Origin: Streptomyces sp. NRRL B-1347
GTDB taxonomy: Bacteria > Actinomycetota > Actinomycetes > Streptomycetales > Streptomycetaceae
Direction of reading: 5' to 3'
DNA length: 32,983 bases
NCBI RefSeq assembly: GCF_000720325.1
Contig: NZ_JOJM01000088.1
Location: forward strand, 1 to 32,983
Shown here: one piece after another, positions 1-31,508 of the stretch
Position numbering within the stretch: position 1 is the first letter of the stretch
Layout: every line of letters begins with the position of its first letter
The notes under the pieces: generated by a model
Databases searched by the model: none
What the model was told of the DNA's origin: nothing
What the model saw: the letters and a program-made list of their open reading frames with translations, nothing else
Program-made: the position numbers and the translations under genes

Positions 1-1024
1 CGCCCCCACCGCCGCAGCCGGACCCGCCGCTGCCGCAGCCGGAACCGCTCCGGCCGTCCCCCTCGCCGTCGCGGTTCGCGGTGCCGCAGCTCGACCCGCC
101 GCAGCCGGTGCCGCCCGCGCACCAGCCGACCGGGGCGCCGGTCCAGACGGCGGCGTCCCCCGGCCGCGCGCCGGAGGCGGCGACGGGCACCGTCGGCTGA
201 TGGCCGACCCGCAGCCGCCGCGCCTGCGCCAGTTGCTTGCGCAGCTCGGCGTCCGCCACGCCGCGCAGACCGCGCACGGCGACCGCGTGCGCGGCGCCCC
301 CTGCCGCCTTGCGGGTGCGGACGCGGTGCAGGCGCAGCGCGAAGCGGCCGCGCGCGGTCGCCCGGTCCCTGGCCACGCGGGAGCAGAGCACGCCGACGCC
401 GCCGCCGAGCAGGACCACGAGGGCCAGCTGGACGTCCGAGTACGCGGAGTCGGCACGCGCGGTCGAGGACGTCGCGGCAAGCACCAGGCCGAGCGGCACG
501 CCCGCGACGCACAGGACCAGATGCGCGGTGATCCGGCGCCGCCAGGGCAGCAGCGGTCCCGGCGGCACCATCAGGCCCCGGGCGGCGAGCCCGTCCCCGA
601 GCGCCTGCACGGCCGGGGCGCGCATCACCGCGGCGCGCAGCCAGTGCAGGGCGCCGCTGGGCGCGGCGGCGTAGGTGGCGAGCACCGCGGCCTCCACCGG
701 GTGCCGGGCCGCGGCCCCTGGGGCGACGCCGACGACGCCCGGGTGCGCGACCGTGAGGCGGCCGTCCTCGTGCAGGGCGGCGAGCGCGGCGTCGGCGGCC
801 CGGCCGGGCCCGCCCGCGAGGAAGGCGGCCTCGTACGCGTCGTTGAACGAACCGTGCGGCGGGTCCGCGCGGACCCGCGCCGGGCGCCGCCGGGTCACGA
901 AGACCCCGGCGACGACGGCGGCGCACGAGGCGGCGACGAGCAGGAAGTAGCAGACGGCGACGGCCTCGGCGGCCGCGTCGGGCAGGGCCGTCTGCAGCAG
1001 CTGGGTGTGGTCGGAGCGGTGCAT
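1..1024 (-). CDS. TIGR04222-type membrane protein with Cys/Gly-rich tail (3' end outside window)
   Basis: ATG at 1024 with a GGGGGA ribosome site about 7 nt upstream; 341 codons are visible and the gene continues past the left edge. A first membrane helix lies at about residues 17-43, then a soluble region of about 115 residues, then two further helices at about 163-183 and 197-213. From about residue 299 the sequence becomes low-complexity and rich in Gly, Ser and Cys, with pieces such as GCGGSSCG and SGCGSGGSGCGGGG. An N-terminal membrane domain followed by a Cys/Gly tail is the layout I know for TIGR04222 proteins; the assignment is from memory, not a search. It lies 49 bp downstream of the DUF692 enzyme gene on the same strand. 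I infer the tail may be the substrate of that enzyme. The tail length is unknown. Confidence 0.72.
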   Translation of the reverse strand, partial: MHRSDHTQLLQTALPDAAAEAVAVCYFLLVAASCAAVVAGVFVTRRRPARVRADPPHGSFNDAYEAAFLAGGPGRAADAALAALHEDGRLTVAHPGVVGVAPGAAARHPVEAAVLATYAAAPSGALHWLRAAVMRAPAVQALGDGLAARGLMVPPGPLLPWRRRITAHLVLCVAGVPLGLVLAATSSTARADSAYSDVQLALVVLLGGGVGVLCSRVARDRATARGRFALRLHRVRTRKAAGGAAHAVAVRGLRGVADAELRKQLAQARRLRVGHQPTVPVAASGARPGDAAVWTGAPVGWCAGGTGCGGSSCGTANRDGEGDGRSGSGCGSGGSGCGGGG

Positions 1025-1073
1025 GGTTGATCCCCCGATGTGCGGTGGTGCGTCGTCGGTGCGGGGCGCCGCG

Positions 1074-2435
1074 TCAGCGGAGCGGCCGGCTCCGGCGCAG
1101 CGCGAGCCGTGCCGTGCGCAGCCAGCGCGTCACCGGACGCCCGTCCAGCGGGCGCGGCCCCGAGCGGTCCAGCCACCAGTGGGTGAGGCGGCCGCGGGCC
1201 GCGGCGTCCTCGGGGCGGCCCGCGAGCAGCAGGTGCTCGGCGAAGGTCAGCGCGTCCCTGCGGTAGCCCGCCGTCATCGGGCGCCCCGCGGCGTACGCGC
1301 GGAACTCGTCGCGGTACGCGTCCCCGAGGATCTCCGGCAGCTCCGGTGCGACCTTCGCCACGACGTCGGCCCGCTTGGCGGCGAGCGCCCGGCTCTGCAC
1401 CCGGAGCCGCCCTCGGTCGAAGCCCTCGGGCGCGGGCGTTCCCGCGACGAGCGCGGACAGCAGGGACGCCTGGGCGAGGGCCACGCGCTCGCGGGCGGTG
1501 GCGAGGACCTCGGCGTCCGCGGGCCCCGGGACCTGCGGGGCCTCGGTGGCGGGGGTCCGGGCGGCGGGGGCTTCGGTGGCGACGGCCCGGGTGGCGGGGT
1601 CCGCGGTGGCCGCCGCCGTCGCCACCGTGGCGCGGATCGCGTCCAGTTCGCGTTCGAGCTCGCCCGGCTCGGGGAAGTTCTCGTCCCGCTCCAGGAGCAC
1701 GCCCGGCGGGTCCGTGCGCGCGGCCAGGTCCGCGAGGATGTCGAGGACCGGCTGCGGCACGGGGTGCGCGTGGCTGTCGTGCCAGACGCCGTCCCGCTCG
1801 AAGCCGCCCGCCACGTGCACGTACGCAAGCGCCTCCACGGGCAGCTCGGCGAGGGCCTTGGCCGGGTCCTCGGCGCGGTTGACGTGGTTGGTGTGCAGGT
1901 TCGCGACGTCGATGAGCAGCCGTACGCCGGTCCGCTCCACCAGCTCGTAGAGGAACTGCCCCTCCGTCATCTCCTCGCCCGGCCAGGAGATCAGGGCCGC
2001 GATGTTCTCCACGGCCAGCGGCACGGGCAGGGCGTCCTGCGCGATCCGGACGTTCTCGCACAGCACGGCGAGCGCGTCCCGGGTGCGCGGCACCGGAAGC
2101 AGATGCCCCGCTTCGAGCGGCGGCGAGACGGTGAGCGGCCCCCCGGCCCGTACGAAGGCGATGTGCTCGGTCACCAGCGGCGCGCCCAGGGCGTCGGCGC
2201 GCTCCGCGAGCGCGGCGAGCCGCGCCTCGTCGGGCCGGTCGGCGCCGCCGAGCCCCAGCGAGACGCCGTGCGGCACGACCGTGACGCCGCGCTCGCGCAG
2301 CCGCGTCAGGGACGCGGGCAGGTGCCCCGGGCAGACGTTCTCCGCCACGACCTCGACCCAGTCGATGCCGGGCATGCGCTCCACGGCGTCCGCGATCTCC
2401 GGCCGCCAGCCGATCCCCGTACCCAACCGCACCAT
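1074..2435 (-). CDS. DUF692 / MNIO-family iron enzyme with C-terminal DUF2063-like domain
   Basis: 453 residues from ATG 2435, chosen for the GGGGGG ribosome site just upstream; an in-frame ATG at 2504 would only add a poor N-terminus. Residues 1-265 carry the DUF692 TIM-barrel signature in order: VVPHG (H56), TEHIAF (E90, H91), VENIAAL (E143), DVANLHTNH (D176, H181, H184), VHVAGG (H207), DSHAHPV (D220, H222, H224) and LLERDENFP (E249). Family members (MbnB, TglH, BufB and others) use two or three irons to oxidise Cys residues of peptides. Residues 270-305 are an Ala/Thr/Pro linker. Residues 308-405 resemble the DUF2063/HvfC/BufC partner fold: a Gln-containing first helix, [15 protein letters not shown], then [13 protein letters not shown]. 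That would be an enzyme-partner fusion. The C-terminus is Arg-rich. It sits between the DUF4142 and TIGR04222 genes, probably in one operon. Confidence 0.85.
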
Positions 2436-2549
2436 GATTCCCCCCGGGTGTCTTTCCTCGTTCTCGTGACGCGCCTTTGCATCCTCCTTCGACGCCGGAG
2501 TCATGACCCCGACAGGGCCGCCCGAACCTTCTGATCAGCGGATTCAGAG

Positions 2550-3332
2550 CTACATTTGAGGTTCGGGCCGGTCGGTGTTGACGGTGCCGGGGGCCCCGGG
2601 GGAGGGCCGTGAGGTACCGGAGACGTCGTCGCTGGGACCGGCGGGGACCGGCTCCGGAGGCGTGCCGCCGGGCGGCGGCGGTCCGGTGGGGCTGGCCGTG
2701 GCCGTCGAGGCGTTGCCGTTGGCGATCGCGTCGAAGTCGACGAGGCCGGTGCCCTCCAGCATGGTGATGTGGTCGAGGACGGTCTGGTTGGCGTCCGACG
2801 CGAGCTGGCGCACCAGCGAGTTGCGGGTGCTGTCCCGCACCTGCGCGACCACGCTGAAGACCTTGCCGTGCGCGACGCGCAGCAGGTTCGCGAACTTGCG
2901 CTGGTACGTCTCGCCGCTCGCCTCGGTCAACTCCTTGAGCCAGCCCTGCTGTTGCTCGGTCGGCTGGTTGGGCAGCTCCACGTTCAGCTGCGCGGCGACG
3001 CCGCGCACCCGCTCGTCGAGGTCGGTGTGCCCGACGATCAGATGGTCCCCGGCCTCCTTGATGGCCTTGGTGGGCGCGCGCTCCACGGCCTGCTGCCCGG
3101 CGGGCAGCTCCCAGAGCCCGGCGAGCCGCACCTTCACGAGGAAGTCCCGGTCGGCGGCCGACAGGGGGCCCCAACGCGTCGACACGCTCCCGGCGTTGAG
3201 GTTCGCCTCACCCGTGCCGGAGCGGTCGGCGTACGACCACACGGGGAAGGCGAGCGCCCCCACGGTGACGACGAGGGCCGCGATGATCAGGGCCGTGCCG
3301 TTGATGTGCCTGATGGGCATAGTGCGCCGCAA
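2550..3332 (-). CDS. DUF4142 domain protein, membrane-anchored or exported
   Basis: About 260 residues. I chose TTG 3332 because GGGAGG lies 4 nt upstream; ATG 3320 is 16 nt from that site and ATG 3416 has no visible ribosome site. A hydrophobic segment at about residues 11-34 ends in ALAFPVWSYA, suggesting a signal peptide or anchor. Residues 50-205 are helical and fit the DUF4142 four-helix, ferritin-like pattern (LSAADRDFLVKV, AGDHLIVGHTDLDERV, LASDANQTVLDHI). The C-terminal 50 or so residues are a Pro/Gly/Thr-rich disordered tail. DUF4142 has no settled biochemical role. Its place at the head of a minus-strand set with the DUF692 and TIGR04222 genes (114 bp, then 49 bp) suggests co-expression, but the gap leaves room for a separate DUF692 promoter. 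Confidence 0.8.
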   Translation of the reverse strand: MRRTMPIRHINGTALIIAALVVTVGALAFPVWSYADRSGTGEANLNAGSVSTRWGPLSAADRDFLVKVRLAGLWELPAGQQAVERAPTKAIKEAGDHLIVGHTDLDERVRGVAAQLNVELPNQPTEQQQGWLKELTEASGETYQRKFANLLRVAHGKVFSVVAQVRDSTRNSLVRQLASDANQTVLDHITMLEGTGLVDFDAIANGNASTATASPTGPPPPGGTPPEPVPAGPSDDVSGTSRPSPGAPGTVNTDRPEPQM

Positions 3333-3569: not shown

Positions 3570-4040
3570 ATGGCCGACACGCCCGGCGAACCGAGCGCCG
3601 TCCTCCGTGCCAGCGGCCCGCGGGGGCCGGACTGCCCCCTGCGCGCCGAGGCCGTGCGGCTGCGCGACGAGGCGACGCTGCGGGTGCGGCGCGCGGACCG
3701 CAGGGCGCTGTGGTGGGCGGTCGTCGACGTCGTCCTCGGCTTCCCCGCCGCCCTGCTCGCCGGGGTCTCCGGCGCGGCGGGCCTCGCCACGGCGGACGCG
3801 CGGGTGCCCGCGGCCTTCCTCGCGCTGTTCTCCGCGGGCCTCGCCGCCGGGGCGGGCTTCCTGCGCAGCGACACCCGGCGCGTCGCCAACAAGCGCGCCC
3901 GCAAGGCCTGGGCGGCGGTGCAGGACGAGGCGGCCATCGCCCTCGCGCACGACCGCGTGGACGACGACACGATGCGCGTCCTCTTCGAGAAGCGACAGGT
4001 GGCCCTGTCGGCGTACGAGGGCACGGACAGCACCGGATAG
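3570..4040 (+). CDS. Two-helix membrane protein, unknown function (SLATT-like layout)
   Basis: 156 residues from ATG 3570; no convincing ribosome site, so it may be leaderless. A basic N-terminal helix of about 45 residues (LRDEATLRVRRADRRALWW) leads into two membrane helices at about 49-72 and 79-98 separated by a short loop, then a charged C-terminal helix (RRVANKRARKAWAAVQDEA) and an acidic stretch. This layout resembles SLATT two-helix effector proteins of nucleotide-triggered defence systems, but I see no diagnostic motif and no adjacent cyclase or SLOG gene. The upstream 237 bp (3333-3569) separates it from the divergent DUF4142 gene and holds no other gene that I can see. Coding character is good; function unknown. 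Confidence 0.7.
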   Translation: MADTPGEPSAVLRASGPRGPDCPLRAEAVRLRDEATLRVRRADRRALWWAVVDVVLGFPAALLAGVSGAAGLATADARVPAAFLALFSAGLAAGAGFLRSDTRRVANKRARKAWAAVQDEAAIALAHDRVDDDTMRVLFEKRQVALSAYEGTDSTG

Positions 4041-4086: not shown

Positions 4087-4806
4087 TCAGGCGCCCCGCA
4101 GCGCGGGGTGGTCGGCGACCACCGTGCACGACCCGGGGGCGATCTCCGTGTAGCCCGCGTCCCGCACCACCGGCAGGCCGCTCAGGGTCAACTCCCGCCA
4201 GCGGGACGCCGGCGCGGTCCGTACCGCGAGGGGGAAACCGGCGTCGCGCCACGCCGTCCGGTCCGCCGCCGTCAGGTCCCACCAGGCGAGCTGCGCGCCG
4301 TGGCCCGCCTGCGCCATCGCCTTGCCCGCCGACATCGTCACATCGGGGCTCAGCCACAGCACCGGCGTGCCCGGCTCCGGGCCCACGGGCGGCTCCGGGT
4401 CCTCCAGGTCCGTGCCCGACACCTGGAGGCGGGCCAGGTCCTTGGGCCAGCCGTCCAGCGGGACCGGCGGATAGACGCGGACCTCCGCCGACTTGCCCGC
4501 GACCGTGATGCCGTCGAGGGCCTCCGCGCGGCGCCACTCCGCGCCGCGCGCCCTGCGCACCACCTTGCGGATGCGGGCGTCCTGCCAGTCCCGCATCGCC
4601 GGTGCCCACGCGCCCTCGCCGAGGGAGCGCTCGTCGCTGAGGATCGTCAGGACCGCGCGCGCCGCCGTCTCCAGAGCGTCCGTACGCGCCGGGGGAGCCG
4701 CCCGCTCGATGCGGGCCACCAGGGGCAGCACGAACTGCGGCGCCTCGTCGCGCGCGCTCGGCTCGGCACGGAAGGGACTGTCGACCTGGGGTTCGTAAGC
4801 ACTCAC
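4087..4806 (-). CDS. Peptidyl-tRNA hydrolase (PTH2 family) with long N-terminal extension
   Basis: 239 residues from GTG 4806. The C-terminal 95 residues carry PTH2 hallmarks: MSAGKAMAQAGHGAQLAWW (158-176; SAGK and H169 correspond to the family SAGKxAAQxxHA motif) and RDAGYTEIAPGSCTVVA (215-231), matching the usual DAGxTQIAPGT. PTH2 enzymes recycle peptidyl-tRNA by cleaving the ester between peptide and tRNA. Typical PTH2 proteins are about 115-180 residues; here about 145 extra N-terminal residues precede the core, with a helical, Arg-rich section (65-95) and VRVYPPVPLDGWPKDLARL. Housekeeping Pth (Pth1 type) is unrelated, so this is likely an accessory paralogue. Divergent from the ABC pair, with 60 bp between starts. 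Confidence 0.75.
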   Translation of the reverse strand: MSAYEPQVDSPFRAEPSARDEAPQFVLPLVARIERAAPPARTDALETAARAVLTILSDERSLGEGAWAPAMRDWQDARIRKVVRRARGAEWRRAEALDGITVAGKSAEVRVYPPVPLDGWPKDLARLQVSGTDLEDPEPPVGPEPGTPVLWLSPDVTMSAGKAMAQAGHGAQLAWWDLTAADRTAWRDAGFPLAVRTAPASRWRELTLSGLPVVRDAGYTEIAPGSCTVVADHPALRGA

Positions 4807-16282: not shown

Positions 16283-16375
16283 GTGAACAAAGCTCGATGC
16301 AAGGTTGGCTCCATCACCCCCATCCCGCAGCCGGATCAGGACGGCATCTTCATGTGGTGGTGGCGCGGACTCTAG
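16283..16375 (+). CDS. Possible small peptide gene with three consecutive Trp codons
   Basis: A 30-codon frame from GTG 16283 to TAG 16373-16375. The N-terminal half is basic (MNKARCKVGS), the middle is ITPIPQPDQDG, and it ends IFMWWWRGL. Of 30 codons 24 end in G or C, though the surrounding DNA is the least GC-rich of the window. AGAAGGA lies 12 nt upstream, somewhat far; TTG 16256, with AAAGG 4 nt upstream, would add nine residues. The last 26 bp overlap the 3' end of the SARP gene on the other strand, and WWW lies opposite its final Thr codons. No plus-strand gene follows for 3.5 kb, so it stands alone. It could be a ribosomally made signalling or modified peptide, or chance. Confidence 0.4.
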   Translation: MNKARCKVGSITPIPQPDQDGIFMWWWRGL

Positions 16376-19300
16376 CCAACCCCGGCTCCCTCAGGGCCCG
16401 TCGGAGATCCCGTGCCGGCCCCGTGCATCCGAGCCGCTCGTACAACACCAGCGCGTCCTCCGCGAACACCCGTGCGGAGGGCGCGCTGTGCGTGTGCAGG
16501 GTCGTGCGGGCCAGTCCGTCGAGGGCGCGGGCCGCGCCCAGGGGGCTGTTGAGCTCGCGGGCCATGCGCAGTGCCTCATGGTGGGCGTCGAGTGCGGCCT
16601 CGTGGCGGCCGAGGAGCCGTAGTGCAGTGCCCCTCCCCAGGAGCGCGGACTGGAGGTCGAGGGGGCTGCCGATGCCGCGAGCGACGCGTTCGGCTTCCGC
16701 GAAGTGCCACAGTGCCTCGCCCGGCCGCCGGTCGGCCGCGTACGCCGAGCCCAGACTGATGAGCGTGTCCGACTCGCCCCGGGAGTCACCCGCGGCGCGG
16801 TAACTGGTCAGCGCGCGACGGAAGTAGCCGAGTGCCTGCTCCAACTGGCCTGTGGCCTGGCAGACGTTGCCGAGGTTGGTGAGCAGGTTCGCGTGCTCCT
16901 GGCGCCCGCCGACGCGCTGGGCGAGACGTAAGGAGCGCTCGTAGTGGGTGCGGGCTTCCTCATAGCGGCCGTCGATGCGGTGCACCTCGCCGATGTTGTT
17001 GAGCGCACGCAGCTGGCCGTGGAGGTGACCCGTGGACTCGTTGATGCGCAGGACCGTGCGGAACTGCTTCAGAGCCTGCTCGTGGTGGCCCGCCGCGTGC
17101 AGCGCCACGCCTCGCATGTTCGCCACCTGGGCCTCCCCGTACCGGTCCTGGACTCGTACGTACAGAGGGAGCGCCGCGTCAAGGAGCCGGGTGCACGCGC
17201 CTCTCCGGCCTGCGGCGAAGTGGGCGCGGGCCGACTGGAGGAGGGCGTCGGCCTGGCCGTGCGTGTCGTTCAGGTCATGGAAGAGGAACAGCGCCTCGGT
17301 CGCGCGATGCAGCGCCTTGCCGTGGTCCTTCTGGGTCAGTACGTCGGCCTGCTCGGTCAGGCTCCTGGCGAGGGCTGCGGTGTCCGCGCCGGCGCGGGCC
17401 GCGGACACCGCCGCCTCGAAGAGCTCGGCTGCGGTGTCCCACGCGCCCCAGCGCCGCAGGGGCGTGGCGAGCACGTGCGGGAAGGGCACCGCGTGCTCCG
17501 GTGATTCGGCGGCAGCGGTGCGCGCGACGGCGAGCAGATTGCCCCGCTCCACGCTCAGCCACGCGGCGGCCTCGTCCGCGCCGGCGAACTCAGGTGCGTA
17601 CGGGGAGGTCAGGCGCGGCACCGGCGCCAGGACGCGGCGGTGCGGCTCGGTGCGGACGACCGCCCGGTGCGCGGCGGTCAGATAGCAGTCGAGCAGCCGG
17701 GCGAGTGCCGTGCGCCGGTCGGCCAGGGGTTCGTCGCGGGTGACCACCCGCAGGCCGAAGGCGCGGGTCAGGTCGTGCAGGCGGTAGCGGTCGGTCACCG
17801 GCTCCTCAAGGAGGTTGCGGTCGAGCAGGTGGTCGAGGAGCTTGCGGGTGCGGGCCGTCAGGGTCCGGGGATCCCTGGGTGTGCCGCCGTGGACGGTGAG
17901 CGCCGTGGCCGAGTGGGGGGTGAGGTCCGGGCCGGGGTGCAGCGCGAGGCGGCGGAGCATCCGCGCCGCCTCCGGGGCCAGATCGGTGTACGAGAGCGAG
18001 AAGGCGGACGCCACGGTATCGCCGTCGAACTCGTCCAGCGGGTCGGCCGCCTGGACGAGCCGGTCGGTGAGGTGGTCCAGACTCCAGGCGTCCCGGTGCC
18101 GGAACTGGCTCGCCAGGAGCTGGAGCGCGAGCGGATGGCAGCCGCACGCGCCGACCGTCCGTGCGAGCGCCGCGGGGTCGGCGGGCACCCGGGCGGCACC
18201 GGCGACGCGCTGGAACAGCGTGGCGGCCTCCGCCGTGGACAGCACCTCCAGGTACAGGGGTGTTGCGCCGTCCAGGCCGGTGAGGCGGTTGCGGCTGGTC
18301 ACGATGGCCCGGCAGGATGCGGTGGCGGGCAGCAGGGGCGTGACCTGGTCGGCGTCGCGGGCGTTGTCGAGGACCACGAGGACGCGGCGGCGAGCCGTCC
18401 ACTCGCGCCAGCGCGTCACGCGCTCGTCGAGTGACGTCTCTCGCTTGCCGCCGGAGTCGTCCGCCTCGTCCGTCGCGCCCGCCGCGTGCAGCAGGACGAC
18501 GAGGGCCTCGGCGGGGTCGTACGGCGGAAGCGTGCCGTATCCGCGCAGGTCGACGTAGAGGCGGCCGTCCGGGTACGTGTCCGCGAGGCGGTGCGCGGCG
18601 TGGACGGCGAGGGCCGTCTTGCCGACGCCCGGCATGCCGTGCACGACGGTGACCGGCAGAGTTGCGGCTCCCGCGGGCGGCGTGCCGACCGGGCTCGCGT
18701 TGCCGAGGAGGATGCGCAGTTCGCTTGCGCGGCCGGTGAAGTCCCTGATGTCGCGGGGCAGGTTGGCGCGCGGCGCCTCGTCACCGGGCGGGTGCTCGGC
18801 CGGAGGACCGGTGGGCGGCGCGGACGTGTCCGCGGTGGCCGGGGGCCGTGGGGGAGCCGCCGTCTCCATCAGCGTGCGGTCCTGTTCCAGGATGCGCCGG
18901 TGCAGCTCCCGCAGCTCGGCGCCCGGCTCGATGCCCTGGCCCTCGTGGAGGCGGGCGCGCGTGGAGCGGTACAGGGCGAGGGCCTCGTCGTGCCGCCCCG
19001 AGCGGTACAGCGCCAGCATCAGCGCCGAAATCACCTGCTGGGCCAGCGGGTTCTGGGTGGCCAGCTCGTGCAGCTCGCCGATCAGGTCGGCGTGCCGCCC
19101 CAGTTCGAGCTCCAGGCGGATGCGCTCCTCGCGCACCCGACGGTGGTCCTCCAGGAGCCGGGCCCGCGCCGAGCGCGCCCACGCACCGGTGAACTCCGTC
19201 AACGGCTCGCCGCGCCACAGCGACTCGGCGGTCCTGAGCAGCCCGATCGCCAGCTCCCTGCGGCCCTGCCCGGCGGCCGCGGCGGCCTCGGCCCGCAGCC

Positions 19301-19625
19301 GCCGGTGGCGTTGCAGGTCCACGGTGTCGGGGGCGACGCGAAGGCGGTAGTGGCGCGGCGCGTACCGCTCCAGGCGGGCCTGGTCACCCGCCGCCCTGCC
19401 GAGACGGGAGCGCAGCCGCGACAGATAGCTCTGGAGCGTGTCCTGTGCCGTGCGCGGCGGCTCGTCATCCCAGACTCGGTTCATCAGCGCCTCGACGGAG
19501 ACCGGATCACCGTACGCGTGCACCAGAACGGCGAGAACGCAGCGCTCCTTCGGTGAACCGAGCTCGTAATGCCGCCCGTCGTGCCAGAGTTCGAGAGGTC
19601 CCAGAGCCAGTAGATCCACCGTCAC
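16350..19625 (-). CDS. SARP-type regulator with BTAD, NB-ARC and TPR domains
   Basis: About 1091 residues from GTG 19625 (GTG 19619 equally possible; neither has a clear ribosome site). Residues 1-100: OmpR-like winged helix (LLALGPLELW ... DTLQSYLSRLRSRLG). About 104-248: bacterial transcriptional activation domain. An Ala/Pro linker leads to an NB-ARC ATPase: P-loop HGMPGVGKTAL (about 330), Walker B RRVLVVLDNA, IVTSRNRLTG and GCHPLALQLLA. About 750-1080: tetratricopeptide repeats (ALNNIGEVHRIDGRYEEART and similar). This is the AfsR/large-SARP layout; such proteins activate secondary-metabolite or developmental genes when ATP is bound. A TTA codon at residue 899 makes it a likely bldA target. 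Divergent from the GT-B gene across 328 bp. Confidence 0.93.
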   Translation of the reverse strand: MTVDLLALGPLELWHDGRHYELGSPKERCVLAVLVHAYGDPVSVEALMNRVWDDEPPRTAQDTLQSYLSRLRSRLGRAAGDQARLERYAPRHYRLRVAPDTVDLQRHRRLRAEAAAAAGQGRRELAIGLLRTAESLWRGEPLTEFTGAWARSARARLLEDHRRVREERIRLELELGRHADLIGELHELATQNPLAQQVISALMLALYRSGRHDEALALYRSTRARLHEGQGIEPGAELRELHRRILEQDRTLMETAAPPRPPATADTSAPPTGPPAEHPPGDEAPRANLPRDIRDFTGRASELRILLGNASPVGTPPAGAATLPVTVVHGMPGVGKTALAVHAAHRLADTYPDGRLYVDLRGYGTLPPYDPAEALVVLLHAAGATDEADDSGGKRETSLDERVTRWREWTARRRVLVVLDNARDADQVTPLLPATASCRAIVTSRNRLTGLDGATPLYLEVLSTAEAATLFQRVAGAARVPADPAALARTVGACGCHPLALQLLASQFRHRDAWSLDHLTDRLVQAADPLDEFDGDTVASAFSLSYTDLAPEAARMLRRLALHPGPDLTPHSATALTVHGGTPRDPRTLTARTRKLLDHLLDRNLLEEPVTDRYRLHDLTRAFGLRVVTRDEPLADRRTALARLLDCYLTAAHRAVVRTEPHRRVLAPVPRLTSPYAPEFAGADEAAAWLSVERGNLLAVARTAAAESPEHAVPFPHVLATPLRRWGAWDTAAELFEAAVSAARAGADTAALARSLTEQADVLTQKDHGKALHRATEALFLFHDLNDTHGQADALLQSARAHFAAGRRGACTRLLDAALPLYVRVQDRYGEAQVANMRGVALHAAGHHEQALKQFRTVLRINESTGHLHGQLRALNNIGEVHRIDGRYEEARTHYERSLRLAQRVGGRQEHANLLTNLGNVCQATGQLEQALGYFRRALTSYRAAGDSRGESDTLISLGSAYAADRRPGEALWHFAEAERVARGIGSPLDLQSALLGRGTALRLLGRHEAALDAHHEALRMARELNSPLGAARALDGLARTTLHTHSAPSARVFAEDALVLYERLGCTGPARDLRRALREPGLARVRATTT
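16929..16931 (-). other. In-frame TTA codon (bldA-dependent control point)
   Basis: The minus-strand reading CGC TCC TTA CGT CTC gives R-S-L-R-L within the TPR region; the codon is in frame with the SARP start (898 codons downstream). TTA is rare in Streptomyces and is read only by the bldA tRNA, which accumulates late in growth. I saw no other in-frame TTA in the window, but this was by eye. Confidence 0.8.
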
Positions 19626-19953
19626 CCCCGTGGGTGGGCGAGCGGCGCGGGCGCCGCCGCGAACCGTCCCGCACATGTGTGCGGCACTCGGCTCACTGTT
19701 GTCGCGGTGTCAGGGGGAGCGGCTAGAGGCGCACAGTTGCGCGGCGGGCGCATGGGGCGCGGGGCATGGCCGGAAACCAGCACCGGACCCCGGCCTGCGG
19801 GCCCGGGATCCCGCACCGGCCCACGGAGTGCAGGGTTCCTGCAAGCGGACCGTCCAGGCCCCCTGGGCACGCTGTCGGCGTCCGAGAACACCCGTTCCGG
19901 CGGGCGGCGCAGCCCGCCTGCTGGGAAAGACAGAAGCCGGGGGATTCACAGCG
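19626..19953. promoter_or_regulatory. Divergent promoter region, SARP and GT-B gene
   Basis: 328 bp without a convincing gene; the plus-strand open frame through it has no coding character. It contains the inverted repeat CCGCAC-ATGT-GTGCGG (19669-19684), with the same 6-4-6 geometry as the repeat at 16193-16208. A weak promoter-like pair TTGTCG (19698) and TAGAGG (about 19723) is on the plus strand. SARP proteins often control their own divergent neighbours, so this is the natural place to look for its site. Confidence 0.4.
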
Positions 19954-21210
19954 ATGAGTGTGACCATGCTGGAAGCACACGGACTTCCGGTGCCGGTGCG
20001 CCTGGACGTCGACCGCTGGGCCACGCGCCGGGTACGCAGACGCGTACTCGCCGTGGTGCACACGGTGACGTCCGGGCGGCGGCTCCTCGACACAGTCCGC
20101 CTGCTGGAGGGCGACTGGCGGGTGCAGGTGTTCTTCACCGCCGCGCCCGACGTGTTCAGCGCGGGAGTGGCGGACTTCCTCGCCGAGATCAAGGGCGTCG
20201 TGCTGCCGTGGAGCCAGGCCGTGCAGACCGTCTTCGACCTGGCGGTGGCGGCCGGCCACGGGGGCCTGCACGAACTGCACGCGCCCGTGATCGTCCTGCC
20301 GCACGGCGCCGGGCACAACAAGGTCGTGCCCAGCGGCCCGCGCGGCCGGGCTGTCGCCGCGCGCGGCGTGTACGGGCTGAGCAGGCAGCGGCTCGTCCGC
20401 GACGGCGCCGTGATCCCCGAGGCGATTGTCCTCGCCCACCGCGACGAGCTGACTCGGCTGCGCCGCGAGTGCCCCGAGGCGCTGCCCGTCGCCGAGGTCG
20501 TCGGCGACCCCTGCTTCGACCGGATCGTCGCAAGCGGCCCCGCCCGCGCCCTGTACCGGGAGGCCCTGCGCACCCGGGTCGGGCAGCGGCTCGTCCTCGT
20601 CTGCTCCACCTGGGGCCCGGCCTCGCTGCTCGGTGCCTGCGGCCAGGAGCTGCTCGGGACGCTGGTGTCCGAACTGCCGGGCGCGGACTACCGGGTGGCG
20701 GTGCTTCTGCACCCGCACGTGTGGCACACCCACGGCGAGTGGCAGATCCGCTGCTGGTTCGCCGAGCTCGGCCGTCGCGGACTCACCGTGGTCAGCCACC
20801 GCGCCGACTGGGTCGGCGCCCTCGTCGCCGCCGACTTCGTCGTGGGCGACCACGGGTCCGTCTCCTTGTACGGCGCCATGACCGGAGCGCCCGTGCTGCT
20901 CGCCTGCCTGCCGGACGCCGACGTGGACCCGGGGTCGCCGATGGCCGAACTCGGCTCGTTCGCACCGCGGTTGCTCCCCGGCCGCTCGGTGCACCGCCAG
21001 CTGACTCGGGCCGCTGCGGCGTACCGCGCGGAGCCGTACGCGCGCGTGGCGGCCCGCATCACCTCCGAGCCGGGCCGGTTCGCCCGGAGGATGCGGGCGC
21101 TGCTCTACCGGAAGCTGCGGCTACGGCCACCGTGTGTGCTCCCGGAGACGGAGCCGGCGCGCCTGCCACAGGTCCTGACGTACGACGAGCCGGGCAGCGT
21201 CGTGTCATGA
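19954..21210 (+). CDS. GT-B-fold protein, CDP-glycerol glycerophosphotransferase-like
   Basis: 418 residues from ATG 19954 with GGGGGA 8 nt upstream. Two Rossmann-like halves: the first contains VLAVVHTVTSGRRLLDTVRL and VIVLPHGAGHNK (113-123); the second GDPCFDR (184-190), LVLVCSTWGPASLLG (213-227), VLLHPHVW (250-257) and FVVGDHGSVSLYGAMTGAP (295-313). The sequence of strands, hPHxW and GDHGSVSLY matches the CDP-glycerophosphotransferase/GT-B donor-binding half, so a transferase or epimerase on a nucleotide-linked substrate is plausible. I recall relatives labelled translation initiation factor 2; there is no GTPase domain to justify that. ATGA overlap couples it to the next gene. Confidence 0.75.
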   Translation: MSVTMLEAHGLPVPVRLDVDRWATRRVRRRVLAVVHTVTSGRRLLDTVRLLEGDWRVQVFFTAAPDVFSAGVADFLAEIKGVVLPWSQAVQTVFDLAVAAGHGGLHELHAPVIVLPHGAGHNKVVPSGPRGRAVAARGVYGLSRQRLVRDGAVIPEAIVLAHRDELTRLRRECPEALPVAEVVGDPCFDRIVASGPARALYREALRTRVGQRLVLVCSTWGPASLLGACGQELLGTLVSELPGADYRVAVLLHPHVWHTHGEWQIRCWFAELGRRGLTVVSHRADWVGALVAADFVVGDHGSVSLYGAMTGAPVLLACLPDADVDPGSPMAELGSFAPRLLPGRSVHRQLTRAAAAYRAEPYARVAARITSEPGRFARRMRALLYRKLRLRPPCVLPETEPARLPQVLTYDEPGSVVS

Positions 21211-21623
21211 CGGTGGAAAGGGTCCGCATGAGGTTCCCTCAACTGTCATGTGATCAGCGGTGTTTCGTGGACGAGCACTTGAGGGTGACGCTGCCTGCCC
21301 CGGACCCGTGGGCGCGGATTGCCGACGTCCTGTGCGCGCGGTCGGCGTCCGCCCGGTACGCGGCCGACCTCGCGGCGTGCTGCCCGGGAGCCCTCGTCGT
21401 GGCCGTGCACGACGGCCGCACCTGCCATCTCCGGCTGGGGCCGGACGGGTACGCCCTGAGCCTGCGGGAGCGGGGCGTGGTGCCGGCGGCGGTCTGGCGA
21501 GCGCGGGCGTCCCTCGTCCACGCGGGTCTCGCGGCCGGACTTCCCGCCCCGACGGTGGGGTCATTCGTCGGTCGGGGCGGAGAGCCGGTCCAGGCGCGCG
21601 CGTGCCCGGTACGCGTCGGCTGA
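21207..21623 (+). CDS. Unknown 138-residue protein coupled to the GT-B gene
   Basis: ATG 21207 overlaps the upstream stop (ATGA), the clearest evidence that this is a real gene; ATG 21228 is an alternative. It encodes a mixed alpha/beta protein with several Cys (QLSCDQRCFVDEHL, LAACCPGALVVAV, RTCHLRLGPDGYAL). No family is recognised. The last 63 bp overlap the 3' end of the convergent NB-ARC gene (21561-21623). Its function presumably follows that of the GT-B protein. Confidence 0.6.
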   Translation: MTVERVRMRFPQLSCDQRCFVDEHLRVTLPAPDPWARIADVLCARSASARYAADLAACCPGALVVAVHDGRTCHLRLGPDGYALSLRERGVVPAAVWRARASLVHAGLAAGLPAPTVGSFVGRGGEPVQARACPVRVG

Positions 21624-23723
21624 GTCGGCGCGGCCCGCTGTGCCGTAGAGGGCGAGCGCCTCGCCGTAGCGCTCGCGGGCCAGGGCGGTGTCGTGGCGGT
21701 GCTCGGCGAGTTCGCCGAGCGCGTGCAGGGCCCGCGCGGTCTCGTATGCGGCTGCCATGGCCCGCAGGCTCGACAGGGCGGTCGTCAAGTGGCGCTCGGC
21801 GGGGGCGGTTTCTCCCAGGCCGAGGTGGGCGCGGCCGAGGAGGATGGCCGCGCGGGCCGCGTTGTACGTGTCGCCGGACGCGCTCAGCGTGGCGTGCGCG
21901 GCGGCCGCCTGGTCCGCGGCCTCGCGGTCTTGGTGCCGGGCAAGGGCCACGTCCGCGAGGTTGAGCCGGGCCAGGCCGCCCGCCCGGACGTCGCCGCACT
22001 CCGGCAGCTCGCGGGCGGCGCGCGTGAAATAGCGGGTCGCCTCGTCCAGCCGGCCGATGCGCTGGTGGGCCAGGCCGCGGTAGTTGAGCGTGCGGGCGTG
22101 GCCAAGGGCGTTGCCGTCGGCCTGGAACTGCCGTGCCGCCCGCTCGAACATCTCCAAGGCCCGCTCGTGGTGGCCCCTGCCCAGCTCGCCCACGCCGCCG
22201 GAGGTCAGCATCCGGCACTGCGCCGCCGTGTCGCCGAGATCCTCGGCGGCGGCGAGGCCCTCCTTGTGGGCGGTGTGCCACTGCTCGTAGAACTTGCGGC
22301 GCAGGAACAGCGGCCAGAGCGCGTCGGCGAGCTGCCAGCTGACCGTGGGGAAGTGCGTGCGCCCCTGCCGGATCACCGCCATCAGGTTCGGCAGTTCGCG
22401 CTCCTGCCAGTCCAGGGCCGCCTCCGGGCCCTCTCCGAAGTCCTCCGTGACCACCGGGCCCGGGCCGTGGTCGCGGGCCATCGTCCGGTGCTGTGGGTCG
22501 ACGGCCTCCTCGGCGCGGGTCGCGGTGGCCAAGTAGTGGTCGGCGATCCGGCGCAGCCCCGCCGTGCGCTCGCGGGACGGCTCGTCGAGCGCGGCCTTCC
22601 GGGCCGCGTGCAGGCGTACGAGGTCGTGGAAGCGGTGGCGGTCCTCGTCGGCGTCGGTGAGGAGGTTCGCCTCGTGGAGCAGGTCGAGCAGCGCGAGCGC
22701 CCGCGCCCGGGTCGCGGCCTCGTCCTCCCCGGCGCGGGCGAGCACCGCGACTGCCACCGCGTCACCGAACTCGGTGCCCGGGTGCAGCCCGAGCAGGCGG
22801 TACAGCCGCGCGGCGCCCGGCGGCAGCTCCTGGTAGGTGAGGTCGAGCGTCGCCCGTACGTTGTGGTCGCCTTCGATGGCCAGCTCCTCCAGACGGTCGT
22901 GTTCTTCGGCCAGCGCCCGCACCATCGTGGTGATCCCACGCCGGGGCCGGGCCGCGAGCCGCGCCCCTGCCACCCGCACCGCGAGCGGCAGGCCCGCGCA
23001 CAGCTCGACCAGGGCACGGGCCTGCTCCGGCTGTGCGTCCACCCGGCCGTCGGCGAGCGTCTCGGCGAGCAGCTCGACCCCGGCGTCCAGGCCCAGCGGC
23101 TCCAGCTGCACGGTGTGGCAGCCGTCGACGGTCAGGCCCGGCATGCGCCAGCGGCTGGTCACCGCCGTCACGCTCTGCCCGCCGGGCAGCAGCGGCCGCA
23201 CCTGCGCGGCCGACACGGCGTCGTCCAGGAGCACCGTGAGGCGCAGGCCCGCGGTCAGCGAGCGGTACAGCGCGGCCCCCTCGGCGAGTGTGGCGGGCAC
23301 CTGGGCGGCGGGCACACCGAGAGCGCGCACGAAGCGACCGATGACCTCGGCCGGATCCGCAGGCCCGTCCGGCGCCTGTGCCCCGAGGTCGGCGTACAGC
23401 TGCCCGTCGGGGCAGGACGTGCGCAGGGTGTGCAGCCACGCAAGGGCGAGGGCTGTCTTGCCGACGCCGCCGAGGCCGCTGACCGCGACGAGAGTGCGGT
23501 GACCCGCGCGCCCGGAGCGCAGCCGCCGCCTCTCCAGGAGGCCGAGCTCGGCCGTGCGGTCCGTGATCCGGCCCGTCGGCGGCAGCTGCCACGGAGTGCA
23601 CGGCAACGGTGCCTGCGGAGCGGCCTGGACGTGGATGCCGCCGTACACGGTCCCCGCCTGGAGCGCTGGTCCGTGCACTGTTCCGCTCAACTCGTTGTGG
23701 CCGCCCTGCTCCTGCCCCCGCAC
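21561..23723 (-). CDS. NB-ARC/TPR STAND ATPase with N-terminal amyloid-signalling-like motif
   Basis: 720 residues from GTG 23723, chosen because GGAGGGGG lies directly upstream; longer readings to 23828 add only non-conserved sequence. Residues 9-32 contain HNELSGTVHGPALQAG followed by TVYGGIHV: the N-x-x-x-G-x-V-x-G-x-x-x-Q-x-G-x-x-x-G-G pattern of bacterial amyloid signalling sequences (BASS, RHIM-like). Then NB-ARC: P-loop GLGGVGKT (83-90), LTVLLDDAV, VTAVTSRWRM, CAGLPLAVRVAG. TPR repeats fill the C-terminus from about residue 470 (MLTSGGVGELGRGHHERALE, TLNYRGLAHQRIGRLDEATR). There is no effector domain in the protein itself. STAND proteins of this kind act as NLR-like sensors that oligomerise and nucleate a partner; no partner with a matching motif is in the window. 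Confidence 0.88.
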   Translation of the reverse strand: MRGQEQGGHNELSGTVHGPALQAGTVYGGIHVQAAPQAPLPCTPWQLPPTGRITDRTAELGLLERRRLRSGRAGHRTLVAVSGLGGVGKTALALAWLHTLRTSCPDGQLYADLGAQAPDGPADPAEVIGRFVRALGVPAAQVPATLAEGAALYRSLTAGLRLTVLLDDAVSAAQVRPLLPGGQSVTAVTSRWRMPGLTVDGCHTVQLEPLGLDAGVELLAETLADGRVDAQPEQARALVELCAGLPLAVRVAGARLAARPRRGITTMVRALAEEHDRLEELAIEGDHNVRATLDLTYQELPPGAARLYRLLGLHPGTEFGDAVAVAVLARAGEDEAATRARALALLDLLHEANLLTDADEDRHRFHDLVRLHAARKAALDEPSRERTAGLRRIADHYLATATRAEEAVDPQHRTMARDHGPGPVVTEDFGEGPEAALDWQERELPNLMAVIRQGRTHFPTVSWQLADALWPLFLRRKFYEQWHTAHKEGLAAAEDLGDTAAQCRMLTSGGVGELGRGHHERALEMFERAARQFQADGNALGHARTLNYRGLAHQRIGRLDEATRYFTRAARELPECGDVRAGGLARLNLADVALARHQDREAADQAAAAHATLSASGDTYNAARAAILLGRAHLGLGETAPAERHLTTALSSLRAMAAAYETARALHALGELAEHRHDTALARERYGEALALYGTAGRADSADAYRARARLDRLSAPTDE

Positions 23724-23856
23724 CGAACCCCCTCCGGCCGTGCTTCCGCTCTGCCTGAGCTGGTCTCTGGGGAACATGCTTTCCGTACACGTGCTCGGTA
23801 TCCGTCGGCGAGGCGCACACCCCTCCAACGCGGCCGAAAGGCAACGCCCAGCACTG

Positions 23857-25116
23857 TCAGGCGAACGCCACCGTGTGCCACGGGCTGTCCGGGTCCGTCG
23901 TCAGGGCCCGGTGGGCGTGCAGGACCGTGGTGTACCAGCTGCCGAACTCCTCCTCGTCGAAGTGCAGACAGCGGCCGAGGACGTAGCCCGCGGAGAACTC
24001 CTCCCAGGACGCGTACGCCGAGCGTGCCGCGCGGGAGGCCTCCTCCAGGGCCGAACCGAGCTCGGCCCGGGTGGCGTAGCGGGCGCCGCGGCCCCAGCGG
24101 GCCATCTTGGAGGCGCGGCCGATGTCCCAGGCCGCCACGGTGTCCACCCGGCCGTCGGCGGGCAGCAGGCCGTCCGCGCGGAAGCGGGCCTCGTAGCGCA
24201 GGACCTTGCCGACGAGCGCGCGCAGGGCGGCCACGAACTGGTCGAGCTCCGGGTCGTCGCCGGGGCGGTGCGGCGTGTCGGGGCCGCTCGTCGCCACCAC
24301 GCGGTCCCGCAGCGTGACCTCCACGCACTGCCGCCACAGGTCCGGGTCCACCGCGCCGCGCCCGGTGGCGACGGCGGTGCGGGCGCCGAGGACGAAGTCC
24401 CAGTACCAGGGGCTCACTTCGCGGTCGAGCAGGCGCCGCTGGACGGCGTGCCACTCCTCGCGGTCGCGCACGCCCCACCACTCCTCCAGGCGCGCCACCT
24501 CGTTGCTGTAGCCCGCGCCGTGCCAGTCGAGGGTGTTCCAGGCGTCGCCGTTGGCGTAGCAGAGGTGGGCGCCGCAGGCCAGGCCGTGCAGCAGCGCGCC
24601 CGGTGCGGGGGCGCCGGTGCGGCGGGTCTCGATGCGGTCGCCGAGCCGGTCCGCGCGGTGGTGCTCGGCGTGCAGGTCGGCCCAGACCTCCCGCTCCTCG
24701 TCCGTGGTCAGGAAGTACTGCTCGCACGGCGTCCGGGTGTTGACGACCAGGACGTCGACGTCGTCGGGCCAGGCGGCGGCGAGGGTGCCGAGCGTCACGT
24801 ACTCGTAGACGAGGTCGGGGTGCGGGGGCGGCAGGAAGCCGGCCGTGTAGACCTGCGCGACCCGGCGGCCGTCGGGCACCTCGATGCTGAACAGGGGCGG
24901 CGCGTCGGGCCGCGCGGCGAGGTCGGTGAGCGGCACGGGGCGGTAGAGGCCCGCGACGGCGAGCGCCCGCAGATACGTGTAGCCGTCGTCCGCGAGGGTC
25001 AGCTCGTACAGGTGCTCCTCCAGGTCGGCGGGCGCCTGCCAGGGCGAGCCGTCCGCCGGTGCCGGGACGACCGGGAACACCTCGTCGTGGTACTCGTCTT
25101 CGGCTGCCGCGTACAT
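23857..25116 (-). CDS. SseB-like / DUF1266 protein
   Basis: 419 residues from ATG 25116. Residues about 33-137 look SseB-like: YLRALAVAGLYRPVPL, DGRRVAQVYTAGFL, and VDVLVVNTRTPCEQYFL, matching the family's VNPGTPxE strand. From about 200 comes a DUF1266 region, with the typical WDIGRASKMARWGRGARY and SAYASWEEFSAGYVLGRCL near the C-terminus, rich in Trp. Both domains are common in Streptomyces proteins near secretion or toxin-immunity genes, but no biochemical function is known. It lies between the hydrolase-P450 fusion and the NB-ARC gene on the same strand (88 bp and 133 bp gaps), with a hairpin upstream suggesting separate transcription. Confidence 0.75.
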   Translation of the reverse strand: MYAAAEDEYHDEVFPVVPAPADGSPWQAPADLEEHLYELTLADDGYTYLRALAVAGLYRPVPLTDLAARPDAPPLFSIEVPDGRRVAQVYTAGFLPPPHPDLVYEYVTLGTLAAAWPDDVDVLVVNTRTPCEQYFLTTDEEREVWADLHAEHHRADRLGDRIETRRTGAPAPGALLHGLACGAHLCYANGDAWNTLDWHGAGYSNEVARLEEWWGVRDREEWHAVQRRLLDREVSPWYWDFVLGARTAVATGRGAVDPDLWRQCVEVTLRDRVVATSGPDTPHRPGDDPELDQFVAALRALVGKVLRYEARFRADGLLPADGRVDTVAAWDIGRASKMARWGRGARYATRAELGSALEEASRAARSAYASWEEFSAGYVLGRCLHFDEEEFGSWYTTVLHAHRALTTDPDSPWHTVAFA

Positions 25117-25166
25117 GCCCGGCTCTCGCTTCCGTGTTCGGGATGATCTTCTCCGAACCGTATCCC

Positions 25167-25191
25167 GGCCCCGCCGGAGCGGCCCGGGGCC
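25167..25191 (-). terminator. GC-rich hairpin after the hydrolase-P450 gene
   Basis: GGCCCCG (25167-25173) and CGGGGCC (25185-25191) pair across an 11-nt loop that itself can pair (GCCG-GAG-CGGC). It starts 13 bp after the stop at 25205 on the minus strand, so it probably ends the fusion transcript before the DUF1266 gene. Confidence 0.45.
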
Positions 25192-25204
25192 CCTCGGGGG
25201 GCCT

Positions 25205-27193
25205 TCAGCCGACGAGGTTCAGGCGCAGCGACTTGAGGCCGTTGATGAAGTGCGAGACGAGGCGGGCGGGCGGCGCCGCCCGGGTGATGACCGGCGCGGC
25301 GGCGAGGAACTCCTCGTACAGGACCGTCAGTTGCAGGCGTGCGAAGTGCGCGCCCAGGCAGACGTGCGGGCCGTCGCCGAACGACACGTGCGGGTTCGGC
25401 GCCCGCGTCAGGTCGAGCCGGTCGGGGTCGGCGAAGGCGCGCTCGTCGCGGTTGGCCGCGGCGTGCAGGACGACCACCTTGTCGCCGCGCCGGATCCGCC
25501 GCCCGGCGAGCTCGGTGTCGCACGCGGCGGTGCGGCGGAAGCTCAGCACCGGCGGGTGCCAGCGCAGCAGCTCCTCCACCGCACCGGCCATCGGGGCCTC
25601 GCCCGTGCGCAGCCGGCGCTGCTCGGCCGGGTGCCCGGCGAGCGCGAGCAGCCCGCCGGGCGCCGCGCCGCGCACGGTGTCGTTGCCCGCGACCGTGAGC
25701 AGGAAGAAGCACATCTCCAGCTCGGGCGCGCTCACTTCGGGCGTGGTGGCGAGCGTGGTGAGGACGTCGTCGCCCGGGTGCCGCCGCTTGTGCGCCGCCA
25801 GCTCGGTGGCGTACGCGAACATGTCGCGCAGCAGGGCGGGGGAGCGCGGGTTCACCGGCCGTCCGTCCGCGCCGACGACCTGCTCGCCCGCCTCGTCTGG
25901 GTCCTGGTAGCCGATGACGCGCCGGGTCCAGTCCAGGAGCAGGCCCCGGTCGGACGCGGGCACGCCGAGCAGGTCCGCGAGGTTGAGGACCGCGTAGTCG
26001 TCGGTGACCGCGGCGACGACGTCGCAGCCGCCGTCCCCCGCGCGGGCCGCGGCGACGGCCCCGGCGACCAGCGAGCGCGCCCGCCGCCGGGCCAGCGCCT
26101 CGAACCGGGCCACGCGGCGCGGCGTGAACGCCCGGCTGACCAGGCGGCGCAGCCCGCCGTGGCCGGGGGGATCCTGGTTGAGCATCATGCGGCGGATGAA
26201 CGGCAGGTCGTCCGGGTCCGGATCGCGGATCTGGGTGGCGCCCAGGTGGGAGGAGAACACCGTCGCGTCCTTGAGTACCGCCGTCACGTCCGCGTGCCGC
26301 GTCACCGCCCAGAAGCCGGGGCCCGCGGGCCAGCCGAGCACGGCAGGCTCGTCCTGCCAGGCCACCGGGTGGTGGTCGCGAAGCACGCGGTAGCGGTCGT
26401 ACGGCACGGCACGCGCGTACAGGCGCGGATCGAACACGTCCGGGACCTCGACTTCGACCTCGGGCGGTGCGTGGGCAACAGGTACCTGGCCTGCCGGTGC
26501 GCGGGGCCGATCGGGCGCGGCGGGGGGCAGCCAGGTCTGCCGCATGGTGTCCGCCGACAGAGCCGGGTCCAGGGCCCCGACCACGGCGAGCGCGGGCACC
26601 GGCGAACCCGTCACGCGGTCCTGGAAGTCGTGGCCCGTCCAGCCGTCGAGCCAGGCGCGGAACGCCTTGGCGTCGCTGCGCGCGAAGGACCGGTCCGCCA
26701 TGCGGCGCAGCCACGCCGCCGGGCGGCCGCCGCCCGTCGTGAAGTCGATGATCGCCCGGCGGCTGTCCGCCGCGTGCTCGGCCGACTCGAACAGCTCCCG
26801 CTGCTCCGGCGGCATCGGGATGCCCGACGCGGGCACCGGCGACACGCCGACGATCCTGCGCACCCGGTCCGGCGCGTCGGCCAGGACGTGCTGTGCCACG
26901 GCGCCGCCCATCGAGTGCCCGACCACCGAGAACCGCGCCCAGCCGAGGTGGTCCGCAAGGGCCACGACGTCGGCCGCGGCCTCGGCCGTCGTGAACGCAC
27001 CGGGCGCGTCCCGCGCCTCGCCGTAGCCGCGCAGGTCCACCACGGCGTACGCGAAGGCGCCGGTGTCCAGGTCGGCGAGGACCGGCGCGAACGCCGACCG
27101 GTCGGCCAGCCAGCCGTGGACGGCGATCACTTTGTGCGGGCCTTCGCCCACCAGGTCATGAGGCAGCGTGAAGGAGGTCACGCCCGCCACCAT
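25205..27193 (-). CDS. Alpha/beta-hydrolase fused to cytochrome P450
   Basis: One uninterrupted 662-codon frame from ATG 27193 (GTG 27181 possible). Residues 10-250: alpha/beta-hydrolase with oxyanion region VHGWLAD, nucleophile GHSMGG (S94) and acid GALDP (D209). The last third of that fold is short and Pro-rich; H241 in VAHAPPE sits at about the right distance to be the catalytic His. Residues 251-662: P450 with LRDHHPVAW, FSSHLGATQIRDPDP, MMLNQDPPGHGGLRRLVS, I-helix AGNDT (502-506), ExxR (541-544) and heme loop FGDGPHVCLG (C612). The P450 half resembles the CYP125/142/124 group that oxidises steroid or fatty side chains. No ferredoxin gene is adjacent. Hydrolase plus P450 in one chain suggests sequential action on one substrate. 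Confidence 0.85.
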   Translation of the reverse strand: MVAGVTSFTLPHDLVGEGPHKVIAVHGWLADRSAFAPVLADLDTGAFAYAVVDLRGYGEARDAPGAFTTAEAAADVVALADHLGWARFSVVGHSMGGAVAQHVLADAPDRVRRIVGVSPVPASGIPMPPEQRELFESAEHAADSRRAIIDFTTGGGRPAAWLRRMADRSFARSDAKAFRAWLDGWTGHDFQDRVTGSPVPALAVVGALDPALSADTMRQTWLPPAAPDRPRAPAGQVPVAHAPPEVEVEVPDVFDPRLYARAVPYDRYRVLRDHHPVAWQDEPAVLGWPAGPGFWAVTRHADVTAVLKDATVFSSHLGATQIRDPDPDDLPFIRRMMLNQDPPGHGGLRRLVSRAFTPRRVARFEALARRRARSLVAGAVAAARAGDGGCDVVAAVTDDYAVLNLADLLGVPASDRGLLLDWTRRVIGYQDPDEAGEQVVGADGRPVNPRSPALLRDMFAYATELAAHKRRHPGDDVLTTLATTPEVSAPELEMCFFLLTVAGNDTVRGAAPGGLLALAGHPAEQRRLRTGEAPMAGAVEELLRWHPPVLSFRRTAACDTELAGRRIRRGDKVVVLHAAANRDERAFADPDRLDLTRAPNPHVSFGDGPHVCLGAHFARLQLTVLYEEFLAAAPVITRAAPPARLVSHFINGLKSLRLNLVG

Positions 27194-27338
27194 GACCGCG
27201 AATCCCGGGCCGCGCAAGAGCGCGGCCCGGCGTCCCGCGGGCCGTTCCGCACGGCGCCGGGGCGGCCGGATTTCCCCCTGGTGGCGGGAAGTTGGCCGAC
27301 CGCCTGCGAGGGGCGCCCCCGGATGGTCAGAATGTGGC

Positions 27339-29777: not shown

Positions 29778-29862
29778 CCGCCGCGCGCCCGCCGCGGCGA
29801 AACCGGCGACCGGCGCCCCGCGTCCCTACGTACCGACTGATCCCCCCCTGGAGAGGGCCAGC

Positions 29863-30585
29863 GTGAACCCAGCCGACCACAGTAGTGACACCACCGAGAT
29901 CGTCGACAACTTCCCGGGCGGCTCCATGGCCAGCCGCCCCGTCCACTTCATCTGGATGCTCGACTGCTCGGGCTCCATGAGCGTCAACGGCAAGATCGGC
30001 CAGCTGAACTTCGCCATCCGCGAGGCCATCCCGGAGATGCAGCAGGCCGCCGACTCCAACCCCGCCGCGTCGCTGCTCGTGCGCGCCATCTCCTTCGCCA
30101 GCGGGGCGAGCTGGCACGTCAGCGAGCCGACCCCGGTGAACAGCTTCTCCTGGGAGGACGTGCACACGTACGGCGGCACGGACATGGGCGCCGCCTTCAA
30201 GCTCGCCGCGGGCGCGCTCCAGACGCCGCCGATGCCGCAGCGCGCGCTGCCGCCGGTGCTCGCGCTCGCCTCCGACGGACAGCCCACCGACGACTGGCGG
30301 GCGGGTCTGCGCGCCATCGACAGCACGCCCTGGGGCAAGCGGGCCGTGCGCGTCGCCGTGGCCATCGGCGACGACGCGGACAAGAGCATGCTCAAGGAGT
30401 TCCTCGCCAACCCCGAGCTGGAGCCGCTGCAGGCCAAGAACCCGCGCCAGCTCGCCGCCGCCATCCGCTGGATGTCCACGGCGGTCGTCAAGGACGCCTC
30501 GACGCCCAAGGTCGAGGACGCCAAGCCCGCGACGCCCCTTGGCCCGCCGCTGACCAAGGTCGAGGGCGAAGCCGACATCTGGTGA
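29863..30585 (+). CDS. TerY-like von Willebrand factor A protein
   Basis: 240 residues from GTG 29863 with GGAGAGG 7 nt upstream. One vWA domain with an intact metal-ion-dependent adhesion site: DCSGSMS (D34, S36, S38), GGTDMG (T106) and SDGQPTD (D138). TerY-type vWA proteins bind partner proteins through the metal. The C-terminal 35 residues are a Lys/Pro-rich tail. Its stop overlaps the PP2C start in GTGA (30582-30585). This is the first member of the TerY-P triad: vWA, phosphatase, kinase. Confidence 0.9.
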   Translation: MNPADHSSDTTEIVDNFPGGSMASRPVHFIWMLDCSGSMSVNGKIGQLNFAIREAIPEMQQAADSNPAASLLVRAISFASGASWHVSEPTPVNSFSWEDVHTYGGTDMGAAFKLAAGALQTPPMPQRALPPVLALASDGQPTDDWRAGLRAIDSTPWGKRAVRVAVAIGDDADKSMLKEFLANPELEPLQAKNPRQLAAAIRWMSTAVVKDASTPKVEDAKPATPLGPPLTKVEGEADIW

Positions 30586-31490: not shown

Positions 31491-31508
31491 AGGAACGGGG
31501 ACCCCAGC

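Follow-up and report, generated by a model that had tools for sequence, protein, structure and literature searches.

Characterized substrates of MNIO (DUF692) enzymes are, in the literature consulted, mostly small precursor peptides. Here we analyze a locus on a contig of Streptomyces sp. NRRL B-1347 (NZ_JOJM01000088.1, here C88), whose entire 32,983 nt constitute the window, where an MNIO gene adjoins that of a TIGR04222 membrane protein ending in a Gly/Ser/Cys tail. The core idea that an MNIO modifies such a tail is already in print as a hypothesis: in the parts of their study drawn on here, Antoine et al. (2025) collected more than 3,500 TIGR04222 proteins, counted them among precursors without Sec signal peptides, and proposed Cys-tailed subsets as MNIO substrates (PMC12452194). 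The same parts place the tails in the periplasm on the basis of predicted topology, tabulate loci in which an adjamnio-II (peptidyl-tRNA hydrolase) gene accompanies the MNIO and TIGR04222 genes, and describe many TIGR04222-MNIO clusters as seemingly devoid of partner genes (PMC12452194). The window locus has the protein families, the neighborhood and the tail-substrate proposal in common with these pairs but departs from them in a charge pattern that points to a cytoplasmic tail and in a partner-like domain fused or adjacent to the MNIO; these features, together with counts of tails against MNIO genes and the finding of Streptomyces loci without a linked Cys tail, are what we add here.

Two characterized pathways offer further comparison. 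The TglH-TglI pair of the pearlin/thiaglutamate pathway also includes an MNIO, and the C-terminal domain of the window enzyme appears to resemble the chain that we take to be TglI; however, in that pathway TglI is a protein of its own and a peptide is modified, whereas the window domain is fused and its candidate substrate is a membrane protein. As in the bufferin system (BufB with a DUF2063 partner), the candidate substrate contains Cys, and BufB is the nearest NCBIfam model of the window MNIO, yet the match of 180.5 bits lies below the model cut-off of 310; furthermore, the window's TIGR04222 protein matches no Pfam family, DUF2282 of the bufferin precursors included, at an E-value of 0.001, and no DUF2063 match is found in the window's partner-like domain.

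A fused MNIO enzyme and a Cys-tailed membrane protein

We consider it probable that a self-contained MNIO-partner enzyme oxidizes Cys residues in a membrane-anchored cytoplasmic tail to form a metal or redox ligand. The locus would pair a self-contained maturase with a substrate protein anchored in the membrane. In the enzyme, the iron cofactor would sit in the N-terminal MNIO domain, while the fused C-terminal helical domain may replace a separate partner (TglI, PME-type 2) and aid substrate binding. As putative substrate we propose the tail of the adjoining TIGR04222 protein, rich in Gly, Ser and Cys; held by a three-helix anchor and presumably lying in the cytoplasm, it would be accessible to the enzyme without export. 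Its Cys residues would probably be oxidized to a thiooxazole or oxazolone-thioamide type heterocycle, the thiooxazole-like product being our guess because BufB is the nearest characterized maturase model, and the outcome would be an intracellular ligand, tethered to the membrane, with a metal or redox role.

The enzyme belongs to the DUF692 family (Table 1) and carries ten residues that are invariant across a 53-row alignment (H56, H91, E143, D176, H181, H184, H207, D220, H222 and E249). This His/Asp/Glu set aligns in part to TglH, and presumably includes the iron ligands. The original prediction had passed over the C-terminal domain of about 145 residues, which is fused or adjacent to the MNIO in 107 of 108 MNIO loci and is, like PME-type 2 proteins, encoded with an MNIO. 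PME-type 2 partners are characterized by a TglI/NGO1945-related fold without the DUF2063 signature, and the window domain may share that fold. Among the matches listed for the open PMC literature, subscription papers being outside the scope, we found no report of an MNIO-partner fusion.

The neighboring protein matches the NCBIfam model TIGR04222 (near_uncomplex) with 122.3 bits (cut-off 43), and its Gly/Ser/Cys tail corresponds to the low-complexity C-terminal region described for the family in the consulted parts of PMC12452194. Both tail pieces quoted in the original prediction, including GCGGSSCG, are present in the translation. Because the window is the entire contig, the gene runs off its edge; two near relatives extend further, P0003 by 10 residues with two additional Cys at the end and P0002 by 18 residues with three. 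When the 120 best homologues, among them the window protein itself, are aligned, Cys occupies four tail columns in 115–118 sequences; C302 and C313 represent two of these columns within the portion present in the window, although column assignment in so Gly-rich a tail is aligner-dependent. Tail Cys residues are conserved among these close homologues more than expected by chance, as the original prediction required.

The distribution of positive charges around the helices predicts an external N-terminus and a cytoplasmic tail. Three hydrophobic peaks are resolved in 115 of the 120 closest homologues, and all 115 have more Lys and Arg on the flanks facing loop 1 and the C-terminal side (means of 2.9, 3.9 and 3.9) than at the N-terminus (0.05) or in the loop between the second and third transmembrane helices (0.3). 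A hydropathy script likewise assigned three helices to 160 of 174 survey proteins, with a charge bias toward a cytoplasmic C-terminus in 157 of the 160 and in 72 of the 73 that are Cys-tailed. An AlphaFold model (predicted local distance difference test score of 78, below 50 for residues 303–341) features three long predicted helices and leaves the side of the tail unfixed.

Cys tails, MNIO genes and rival explanations

In a class survey of 394 genomes, 73 genomes outside Streptomyces contain a TIGR04222 match above the cut-off, for a total of 87 genes; scoring covered, in each genome, the top 7 to 13 candidates of a first look, so that gene counts are lower bounds. Tails were classed as Cys-rich when they had three or more Cys among the last 60 residues and Gly and Ser together made up no less than half of the last 40. 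PF05114 is present in 43 of the 44 genomes with such a tail, the 44th (G079) having the start of an MNIO gene at a contig end (locus L180), versus 3 of the 29 in which no TIGR04222 protein is Cys-tailed (Fisher p = 2e-15 on raw genome counts, kinship ignored). These three are G181, G038, with a tail merged into a partner-like remnant, and G345, whose MNIO lies elsewhere in the genome. At the gene level, an MNIO is found within 1.8 kb of 41 of 48 Cys-tail genes versus 3 of 39 other TIGR04222 genes, and several MNIO-less relatives (e.g., G497, G336, G059 and G113) have Gly-rich tails with Asp and without Cys repeats. In a tree-aware test on 83 rows, with four poor rows removed and G079 scored as linked, pairs differing in MNIO linkage split 5:0 in the direction of the tail (p from 0.03 to 0.375, median 0.06) and those differing in MNIO presence about 2:0 (p 0.5).

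The tie between tail and MNIO is strong by counts, but as co-evolution it is suggestive and not proven. Loci within Streptomyces weigh against an exclusive pairing. Of 121 Streptomyces genomes, 106 contain TIGR04222 and 114 contain PF05114; from the latter, 106 matches were retained after exclusion of seven genomes already analyzed, partial matches and a higher-scoring subfamily, and every second one was examined. The next gene encodes a Cys-tailed TIGR04222 protein in 25 of these 53 loci, two others (L247 and L261) have run-on or frameshifted copies, and 26 have no linked Cys tail; a same-strand search of the DNA covered at the 26, three of them limited by contig ends, revealed no other Cys/Gly-rich stretch. 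In a second set, comprising the 70 of the 80 loci nearest by MNIO sequence that extend 2.5 kb past the MNIO, 8 have a linked Cys tail, and the label switches three times on the MNIO tree. Since loci without a linked tail retain the same invariant MNIO residues as those with one, the MNIO probably acts on a different substrate, or serves a different purpose, in many Streptomyces species. The tail remains a plausible substrate, given its tie to the MNIO and the partner-like domain, but the consistent neighborhood assumed in the original prediction does not hold.

Those loci without a linked Cys tail, like the presence of PF05114 in most genomes of the genus, would also be expected if the MNIO acted on a target encoded elsewhere and the Cys-tail protein were an unmodified functional neighbor, for example a thiol-based metal binder. 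We regard this as unlikely, though the most credible of the alternatives, as outside the genus no Cys tail was seen without a genomic MNIO (the truncated gene of G079 being counted) and the Cys-tail gene is usually its direct neighbor. A periplasmic tail, modified before or during membrane insertion, would agree with the location given by Antoine et al., and we hold it to be improbable, given that the Lys and Arg counts beside the helices run opposite to it in both the survey proteins and the close homologues. Least credible, and in our view highly improbable, is a low-complexity Gly/Ser linker in which Cys drifts neutrally in GC-rich DNA: Gly and Ser do account for 42% and 25% of the final 60 residues in 83 Cys-tailed proteins, tail length varies, and related Gly-rich tails without Cys occur, but the four conserved columns and the association of Cys-rich tails with MNIO presence argue against drift.

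Some loci stand apart from these comparisons. At locus L184 of G038 the Cys tail continues in frame into the apparent partner-domain remnant, no MNIO is adjacent, and the locus looks decayed. MNIO-distant TIGR04222 proteins with Gly tails and three Cys in the last 60 residues are encoded at loci L312, L310, L303, L311 and L316 (genomes G205, G288, G270, G229 and G292, the last without a PF05114 match). A second actinomycete MNIO subfamily, with matches of about 358–371 bits, roughly 100 bits above the TIGR04222-linked enzymes, is found in G345, G404, G365, G281, G289 and G226; in G345 it lies more than 1.6 Mb from the TIGR04222 genes.

Possible function

The Pfam family of the fused domain, PF26136, is named after SCO6045, which from this name would itself be an MNIO. 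In the portion of the stress study consulted, SCO6045 belongs to the genes with altered expression in the hsr mutant and rises 3.0-fold under oxidative stress in wild-type S. coelicolor (PMC4991794, Table 1), a response that a redox role fits at least as well as copper; nothing in our results favors copper, the metal named in the original prediction, over another metal or a redox role.

A built-in or adjacent partner domain would explain how seemingly partner-less TIGR04222 loci can work, and a fused enzyme can be expressed as one polypeptide. A cytoplasmic tail would remove the need for modification before export and shift which function is to be sought; the fusion and the tail location together simplify testing of the idea. 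More tentatively, actinobacteria may harbor a widespread single-chain MNIO-partner system that equips the cytoplasmic tail of a membrane-resident protein with Cys-derived ligands, so that the product is not an exported peptide but an intracellular metal or redox device tethered to the membrane. Judging from the 114 PF05114-positive genomes, MNIO enzymes are common in Streptomyces, a well-studied and genetically tractable genus.

Locus layout

Table 1. Features of the MNIO-TIGR04222 locus in the window
Feature	Position	Strand	Remarks
TIGR04222 membrane protein	2..1024	-	three predicted transmembrane helices, Gly/Ser/Cys tail; cut by contig end
Cys tail, portion present (residues 301-341, five Cys)	2..124	-	translation and homologue conservation
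MNIO (DUF692) enzyme with fused C-terminal partner-like domain, 452 aa	1074..2432	-
MNIO catalytic domain PF05114 (residues 5-269)	1626..2420	-	262.8 bits, cut-off 25
Partner-like domain PF26136 ("SCO6045-like C-terminal domain")	1074..1511	-	C-terminal region excised for analysis
DUF4142 protein, N-terminal hydrophobic segment	2550..3320	-	PF13628, 71 bits, cut-off 27
Small gene, weak SLATT match	3570..4040	+	23.9 bits, cut-off 55
PTH2-domain protein PF01981, 239 aa, one Cys	4087..4806	-

The DUF4142, MNIO and TIGR04222 genes lie together on the minus strand, with the TIGR04222 start 49 bases past the MNIO stop, as originally described. The DUF4142 gene, taken to lead the set, may not be its first member: 58 of 70 Streptomyces MNIO loci have a PTH2-domain gene farther upstream, and in the window the small plus-strand gene splits this gene from the other three. 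Length, Cys count and neighbors make the window PTH2 protein consistent with the published adjamnio-II group, although the consulted parts of PMC12452194 assign that group to PF01195.

In relatives (e.g., loci L014 and L033) the gene order extends to a second DUF4142 gene (DUF4142b) and then a short tail-less TIGR04222 gene. As both sit at the end of contig C85 in the source genome (locus L001), C85 probably adjoins C88. The short TIGR04222 proteins (L001, 1417–2214, and 43 from the genus survey) have three Cys columns of their own, conserved in 40, 37 and 41 of the 43, two of them spaced four apart near the end of the first transmembrane helix and one near the third. Elsewhere in the window, positions 16350–32861 encode a BTAD/NB-ARC/TPR regulator, an NB-ARC/TPR protein, a DUF1266 protein, a GAP1-M/GAP1-C GTPase-associated protein and a kinase-like protein with weak LanL/PknB matches, which might form a conflict-type cluster.
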